Below are positions 8,591 through 10,810 of a stretch of DNA of 54,082 nucleotides, piece after piece. The translations under genes and the position numbers were made by a program. Below the pieces are notes generated by a model. The model saw nothing but the letters and a program-made list of their open reading frames with translations, did not search any database and was not told the origin of the DNA. The first letter of the stretch is position 1. Each line of letters opens with the position of its first letter. The stretch comes from Verrucomicrobiales bacterium (GTDB lineage: Bacteria; Verrucomicrobiota; Verrucomicrobiia; Verrucomicrobiales; V1-33). The DNA lies in assembly GCA_028293125.1 (NCBI GenBank), contig JAQGPJ010000007.1:1-54082 (forward strand), written 5' to 3'.

Positions 8591-10810
8591 TCAACGGCGC
8601 GGGAAAACCGGTGTGAAGTAATAAAGGCACCGGTTCAGATTCGGCGGGTAGGAAGCCTCATCCATCACACGGCCGGCATAAATCAGCCGGGCCACATAGC
8701 CATAGTAGCGGCGTTTCCCATACTGTTTGGCCTCCAGCACATTGAATGGCGGGCGGTAATACGAGGCTTGAAACCACTCCGTCACTCCGGCTTTCCAGTC
8801 CGGCAGCACGGAAAGCCATTTGGTTTCCGGGGGATCGGAGGTGGTGATGTCGATTTCCGCACCGTTGACGGATTCAAACAGGAAAATCTGCAGCTCCACC
8901 TGTGACCGGTCAATCACGGCGGTGCCGGAGGCCGTGATGGGCAGCATCAGGGTGATTCGGTCGCCGGTGGATGAGGGCGGGACCGCCGCCGGTGGTTTGC
9001 CGGAGGGGGCTTTGTCCGCGGGTTTGGGCTGAGGCTTGGTTTTGGTTTTGCTTTTGGGCTTGTCTGAGCTTTTGGCGGAGGCCTTTTTTCCCCAGTGCTC
9101 ATCTTGCGGACTCCTTTGCCGGGAAGCTTTTTTGTCGCGGGAGGAGGAATTTTTCCCTGATCCGGCGGTGGTGGATTTCGATTTGCCGGAGGCTTTTCCA
9201 CTTGCCGTTGAAGTGGGCGGAACTGGAGTCGCTGAGCCCTGTTTTGCTTCCGGCTCTGGTTTTCCGGGTTCAGAGCTGGTGGATTCCGGAGCCGGATCCG
9301 TCTGGGAGTCCTGAGGCTGGGCAGATGCCTCAGCCGGAGGTTTTTCCGCACTGGGCTCGGGACCAGTGGACGGGGTGGACGGGGAAGGAGTTTCCTGAGC
9401 CGGCGTGGAGGGCTTTTCAGGTTCCTGCTGAGGATCCTCCTTAGGTTTTTCATCTCCGGGGATGGGTGTGGAATCCTGTGCCGGGACAAGCGCGGGCGCA
9501 GGTGAAGTATCCGCCGGTTTTTCAGGCGTTTGGTCATTGCTTTCCTTTTCCTGGCCGCTGGCCTGCTTCTTTCCAGCTTCAAAGGATGGGATGCGGTCCG
9601 GATGCGTGATCTCCGTTGTGCCTCCCGATGCGGCCAGCTCCTGCTTCACTTTGACGGGGCCGAAACGCAGCGGACGCTGGCGGTCCTCCTCCTCCCGTTC
9701 CGCCATGCCGCGCCGCAGGAAGTCGGCATAGCGGTCCACGCCGTTCACAATGGCGGCGGCCAGCTGGTTCTGATATTCCTTGGTAGCCAGTTTTTTGACC
9801 TCGTCCTTGTTGGACAGGTAACCCAGTTTGCAGGAAACCGCAGCCATCCGCAGGTCCCGCAGCTCATCCACCCGCACGCGGCGCACGCCCAGATCCACGG
9901 CGGACACCCCGCTCACGACACTGTTCTGCACTGTGGTGGCAAGGGCCAGGCTCTCGCGGTCGCTGATGTTGCCGGCAAAAAACCGTTTATCAATATTCGG
10001 GCTGTCGGCCTCGTTGGTGGCCGGAGTGCCTGCCGGGGGCAGGGTGGAGCATTCGAAACCCTTCATGGCCGCGCTGCCGGTGGCGGCCCGCAGGTTGATG
10101 TAGATCGCCTCCTCCTCCACCGCGTTTGCGGTTCCCACCCGGTCCGCAGGCAGCACCACCTTGTCCTCCGTGCGGGTCATCACGACCTTGTAACCGTTTT
10201 TCCGTAAGAGTCCGGTCAGCACTTCGGCCACCTCCAGCGTGAGGTTTTTCTCAACGAGGGAAGGGGTCTCCACGCCGGTGTCCCGTCCTCCGCCCGCCGG
10301 ATCGAGGATGACGGTGCGCAGAACCGCCGGATCGCGTCGCGCCGTGGGCTGCAGAATGGGATCCAGCAGGTTCCGCACATCGAAGACTGACATCATCGGC
10401 ATGTCCTTCGGCTTGATGATGGGGAAACTGAGGTAAAAGGTCCATCCGTTCAGCCGGATCCGTTTGTCCCCCTGGGCAAGCTCAATGCTGAGTTTCTCCC
10501 GTCGGAGCGCAAAGGCTTTGGTCCAGGCCTCCGGGGTTTTCAGATCGTAGTAAGCGGCCACCTGGGCCAGCGGGACATAGGAGCGTCCCTGATAATACAC
10601 CGGTGTCCACTCCACCTTCGGCGTCACCACCGTGGGCATTTTGGCGGCAGGTGCCGCCTGGATTTTCTGAAAGGCGGCGGCGCACAGCACGGCAGCCGCA
10701 GTCCCCAGCATCACAAGGACGGCCAGCGGGCGGCGGGAAAAGGACGGTGTTGGACAGAGGGGAGCCAAGGGAGGGACAGTAACCGCTTTCGCGGTCTTGT
10801 CCTCCGCCAA
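8591..10810 (-). CDS. Amidase_3-fold protein with degenerate active site
   Basis: 739 residues from a TTG start at 10810, 6 bases after the methyltransferase stop; no ATG precedes the membrane anchor (residues 27-48). Residues about 70-155 resemble a copper-amine-oxidase N-terminal-like domain (YYQGRSYVPLAQVA). Residues about 163-365 align with N-acetylmuramoyl-L-alanine amidases: VILDPAGGGRDTG, EKNLTLEVAEVL, VVMTRTED, LGYLSNKDE. The zinc histidine of DPGHGG is Gly (DPAGGG), the SIHAN histidine is Arg (INLRAA), and the catalytic Glu before GF/YLSN is Lys; only the Glu of EKN remains. A long Pro/Ser/Lys/Glu-rich linker (about 390-620) leads to a C-terminal beta-rich domain (about 625-739) I do not recognise. 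It is probably a non-catalytic cell-wall binding or regulatory protein in the periplasm. Confidence 0.85.
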   Translation of the reverse strand: MAEDKTAKAVTVPPLAPLCPTPSFSRRPLAVLVMLGTAAAVLCAAAFQKIQAAPAAKMPTVVTPKVEWTPVYYQGRSYVPLAQVAAYYDLKTPEAWTKAFALRREKLSIELAQGDKRIRLNGWTFYLSFPIIKPKDMPMMSVFDVRNLLDPILQPTARRDPAVLRTVILDPAGGGRDTGVETPSLVEKNLTLEVAEVLTGLLRKNGYKVVMTRTEDKVVLPADRVGTANAVEEEAIYINLRAATGSAAMKGFECSTLPPAGTPATNEADSPNIDKRFFAGNISDRESLALATTVQNSVVSGVSAVDLGVRRVRVDELRDLRMAAVSCKLGYLSNKDEVKKLATKEYQNQLAAAIVNGVDRYADFLRRGMAEREEEDRQRPLRFGPVKVKQELAASGGTTEITHPDRIPSFEAGKKQASGQEKESNDQTPEKPADTSPAPALVPAQDSTPIPGDEKPKEDPQQEPEKPSTPAQETPSPSTPSTGPEPSAEKPPAEASAQPQDSQTDPAPESTSSEPGKPEPEAKQGSATPVPPTSTASGKASGKSKSTTAGSGKNSSSRDKKASRQRSPQDEHWGKKASAKSSDKPKSKTKTKPQPKPADKAPSGKPPAAVPPSSTGDRITLMLPITASGTAVIDRSQVELQIFLFESVNGAEIDITTSDPPETKWLSVLPDWKAGVTEWFQASYYRPPFNVLEAKQYGKRRYYGYVARLIYAGRVMDEASYPPNLNRCLYYFTPVFPRR

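Follow-up and report, generated by a model that had tools for sequence, protein, structure and literature searches.

A degenerate Amidase_3 protein conserved in a family of Verrucomicrobiales, with graded loss of active-site residues

Our analysis of the window, the whole stretch of 54,082 nucleotides from a Verrucomicrobiales bacterium, identified a protein of 739 residues (8591..10810, reverse strand, as are all features below) in which an Amidase_3 domain has lost most of its active site and has nevertheless been maintained in relatives. Zinc amidases of this type use two His and one Glu to hold zinc and a further Glu for catalysis; of this set, only the zinc Glu is left in the window protein. 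Orthologues with the full H-E-H-E set, the case that could have undermined the initial annotation of the protein as a conserved amidase fold devoid of catalysis, were looked for, and every sampled orthologue lacks it. Instead, the residues are lost by degrees along the orthologous group, which, as read from the sequences, is a stronger form of the earlier pseudo-amidase claim. We consider it fairly probable that the protein is an exported envelope pseudo-amidase, which binds peptidoglycan or an active amidase and controls amidase action without cutting.

The open reading frame begins with a TTG codon, and a GGAGG sequence sits just downstream of this start (window positions 10801-10810), so that it is uncertain where the protein truly begins. 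A hydrophobic signal or anchor segment with Arg-Arg just before it was read from the sequence at residues 27-48 (10667..10732), and a similar export segment is present in most orthologues, suggesting that the protein is exported and located in the envelope. It is followed by a domain (residues 64-160; 10331..10621) resembling the N1 domain of copper amine oxidases. The Pfam match to PF07833 is below the cut-off (13.8 versus 24.2 bits), and the modeled residues 76-153 match the first domain of E. coli copper amine oxidase (1oac) with a Z-score of 9.8 and an rmsd of 2.4 over 77 aligned residues. Next comes the degenerate Amidase_3 domain (residues 167-359; 9734..10312), the only domain of the protein above a Pfam cut-off; neither a LytM (Peptidase_M23) domain nor a peptidoglycan-binding domain was detected in the same scan. 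The clear alignment to Amidase_3 noticed earlier is borne out by a score of 94.4 bits (cut-off 27), covering positions 1-173 of the 174 in the PF01520 profile. An AlphaFold2 model of residues 56-739 (mean pLDDT 67.7, below 50 in the linker) is likewise amidase-like in this region, matching solved amidases with Z-scores of 27.9 (4rn7), 26.7 (E. coli AmiA) and 26.2 (AmiC). In the LytH-ActH pair, the amidase LytH is the active partner and ActH its activator. The fold of LytH (PDB 7tj4) is also similar to the model (Z-score 25.7, rmsd 1.4, 169 residues aligned). The protein ends with a Pro/Ser/Lys/Glu-rich linker (residues about 395-612; 8975..9628) and a C-terminal domain (residues 614-739; 8594..8971). 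Apart from the linker, this architecture of export segment, N1-like domain, dead amidase and C-terminal domain is kept in orthologues.

The substitutions were confirmed by alignment. At the first zinc-binding His, the motif DPGHGG has become DPAGGG (residues 170-175; 10286..10303) with Gly173 in place of the His; at the second, SIHAN has become INLRAA (residues 238-243; 10082..10099) with Arg241; and the catalytic Glu preceding the GF/YLSN motif is Lys328 (9827..9829) within CKLGYLSN. To this we can add that the third zinc ligand, Glu187 (10250..10252), is retained and is invariant in all ten orthologues aligned, and that the window protein also keeps Asp170. The column of the catalytic Glu holds Arg or Lys in most orthologues. 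Since the active-site changes recur in orthologues, they represent neither a sequencing error nor chance. The pseudo and intact clades have 33 positions of the N1-plus-amidase region in common, including E187, R213, D216, R224, N281, D284 and R311. Arg241 and Lys328 beside Glu187 may form a cationic pocket, an idea based on the catalytic columns and not on geometry.

We looked for orthologues among the proteins of 57 relatives, by alignment against 387 genomes of the order and in the contigs of named genomes. Of the 12 genomes sampled from the window's family, 11 contain one, which in one case is apparently split across two contigs; the single genome without an orthologue (G002) is 68% complete. 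In a second family (f3), orthologues occur in five genera, namely g19 and g31, and, as very diverged forms, g10, g12 and g21. A class-wide search of 384 sampled genomes at an E-value of 1e-95, a threshold that would miss diverged or decayed forms, produced no other full-length orthologue. The named records with orthologues are mostly Verrucomicrobiales MAGs. In three genera of f3, the proteins (L038, L039, L040 and L104-L106) are strongly eroded: their N- and C-terminal domains are kept, and the amidase active-site region is almost gone.

When residue states are listed in the order first His, zinc Glu, second His, catalytic Glu, the orthologues form a graded series. The deepest forms (L069, L067 and L083) have H, E, H, R, that is, the zinc triad is kept and the catalytic Glu is replaced with Arg. 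One genus (L066) has R, E, H, N, with one His lost, whereas the window's relatives have G, E, R followed by R or K, with both His lost. The diverged forms lack both His as well, and some of them still have a Glu at the catalytic column. All three losses are thus shared by the window's relatives, but not by the deepest forms, which lack the catalytic Glu only. Read plainly, these states would place the loss of the catalytic Glu before that of the histidines. In a maximum-likelihood tree, from which the active-site columns were left out, the 26 intact proteins lie on one side of a branch with a support of 100/100. Support is weak for the splits among the deepest pseudo forms, and some of their branches are long; for the exact order of loss, residue states therefore carry more weight than the tree.

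Purifying selection acts on the dead amidase domain. Its dN/dS (Nei-Gojobori) ranged from 0.016 to 0.265 over all pairs tested: the near-identical L060-L062 gave 0.016-0.074, and pairs further apart, several of which have dS near saturation, gave 0.041-0.265. Of the seven pairs in this second group, all but L064-L065 had a lower dN/dS in the amidase domain than in the C-terminal domain, which shows no amino-acid changes at all among L060-L062. The domain therefore represents a maintained pseudoenzyme.

The genome encodes seven Amidase_3 proteins including that of the window, and the other six all have the four residues H, E, H and E, as do all 26 aligned intact paralogues from across the order. 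The order has active proteins consisting of the same two domains, N1-like and Amidase_3, with about 30% identity to the window protein. These proteins, represented in this genome by L004 (G000:C113:110061-110636), retain H-E-H-E and differ from the window protein in lacking a C-terminal domain of its type. The N-terminal TRRAWLKRFLA of L004 resembles a twin-arginine export signal; such signals are known for some amidases.

The C-terminal domain is conserved in orthologues, and the same domain ends a TM-TPR protein present across the order. In this genome, the TM-TPR gene (L113:5839-10918; G000:C95) is followed by an FGE-sulfatase-domain gene with a weak kinase match and then by a gene for a secreted protein. 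The TM-TPR/FGE-sulfatase cluster occurs in conserved form throughout the order; in G017 and in this genome an intact Amidase_3 gene is close by, and in this genome it follows the cluster. We claim no fold for the C-terminal domain, as its model is poor (pLDDT 64) and the highest Z-score, 5.6, is to unrelated beta-sandwich proteins; a PHROGs search returned no match for it. The initial annotation also saw support for a regulator or tether in the long linker. This argument does not hold, because among the sampled copies the 218-residue linker is specific to this species and orthologues have only a short join in its place; we therefore rejected it as a functional feature. It contains two tandem repeats, both very short and low-scoring. 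Gene neighbourhood was likewise rejected as a functional clue. Orthologous loci share almost no neighbours past the closest pairs, neighbours differ between genera, and the quinone methyltransferase gene ubiE, rightly regarded from the outset as uninformative, adjoins the pseudo-amidase gene only here among the compared loci. With no conserved neighbourhood, the context points to no partner.

Among known systems, the best precedent is the mycobacterial CwlM (Rv3915), an Amidase_3-type protein whose zinc-coordinating His are degenerate, with His/Arg at these positions, and whose essential role is regulatory (PMC4946905). The likeness lies in the Amidase_3 fold with degenerate zinc-His positions. 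However, CwlM is cytoplasmic, phosphorylated by PknB and equipped with peptidoglycan-binding domains (PMC12723410), whereas the window protein combines an export segment with an N1-like domain and another kind of C-terminal domain, and its catalytic Glu is lost as well. Given this apparently different location and the different accessory domains, we do not file it as a CwlM family member; at most it may work like CwlM. Exported, inactive peptidoglycan hydrolases that regulate active ones are exemplified by EnvC (PMC4946905) and DipM (PMC10336132), but their fold, a degenerate LytM/M23 one, has no relation to Amidase_3. The two LytM (Peptidase_M23) proteins that we found in this genome have intact motifs, and therefore no degenerate LytM-type amidase activator was recognised in it. 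Some different type of amidase regulator could therefore be at work, although this result does not demonstrate one.

Taken together, these observations suggest a role in peptidoglycan binding or envelope regulation, for which the following scenario may be proposed. An order-wide active amidase made of an N1-like domain and Amidase_3 would have been duplicated and then fused to the C-terminal domain. Catalysis would have been lost first, by replacement of the Glu with Arg, the groove and the zinc triad being kept; in the window's lineage, Gly and Arg would then have taken the place of the two His. With the positively charged Arg241 and Lys328 near Glu187 at the former zinc place, the retained fold might bind peptidoglycan stem peptides or an active amidase paralogue, while the C-terminal domain could dock the pseudo-amidase to another envelope component. 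As a result, the place or timing of the action of real amidases would be controlled with no cutting by the pseudo-amidase itself. In the second family, some versions have lost almost the whole active-site region, and what is conserved there may therefore not be the function of the groove.

Could the dead amidase merely space the N- and C-terminal domains, leaving the function to the latter? The conservation of the C-terminal domain, its occurrence in a separate TM-TPR protein and its retention in the g10, g12 and g21 forms with an eroded amidase region all speak for such a scaffold. Yet constraint on the amidase domain is about equal to that on the C-terminal one in the window's family, and the N1-plus-amidase region has kept the 33 positions common to active enzymes, which makes this explanation rather unlikely. 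The very divergence of the g10, g12 and g21 forms might also be taken for a gene on its way out, but open frames in orthologues, near-universal presence in the family and the very low dN/dS contradict decay, and we give it hardly any credence.

It also seems very improbable that the protein is still an enzyme, with some remaining or changed hydrolase activity supported by substitute ligands at the zinc site. Glu187 and Asp170 do remain, and amidase activity was once reported for CwlM despite its non-conserved zinc ligands, according to a secondary citation (PMC4946905). On the other hand, the catalytic Glu and the two His have given way to Lys or Arg, Gly and Arg, respectively, residues that are not known to fill these roles, and the positive charges are conserved. 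The parallel with CwlM extends to the kind of loss and might suggest a cytoplasmic regulator of peptidoglycan precursor synthesis; we see very little chance of this, given the hydrophobic export segment that the window protein shares with most orthologues and the absence of any Pfam peptidoglycan-binding domain from the window protein.

In the literature searched, we found no report of a verrucomicrobial dead amidase; the known cases of dead peptidoglycan hydrolases with a regulatory function are mainly LytM proteins and CwlM. The presence of an Amidase_3 annotation does not by itself imply amidase activity. More speculatively, and we regard this as a tentative and rather doubtful idea, the protein could be a verrucomicrobial counterpart of EnvC derived from the amidase fold, a secreted pseudo-amidase controlling active paralogues, with living intermediates (loss of the Glu, of one His, of both His) recording the passage from enzyme to regulator. 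A family-wide conserved, apparently secreted Amidase_3 pseudoenzyme, with intermediates that keep the zinc triad and lack the catalytic Glu, would make the route from amidase to binder or regulator testable step by step.
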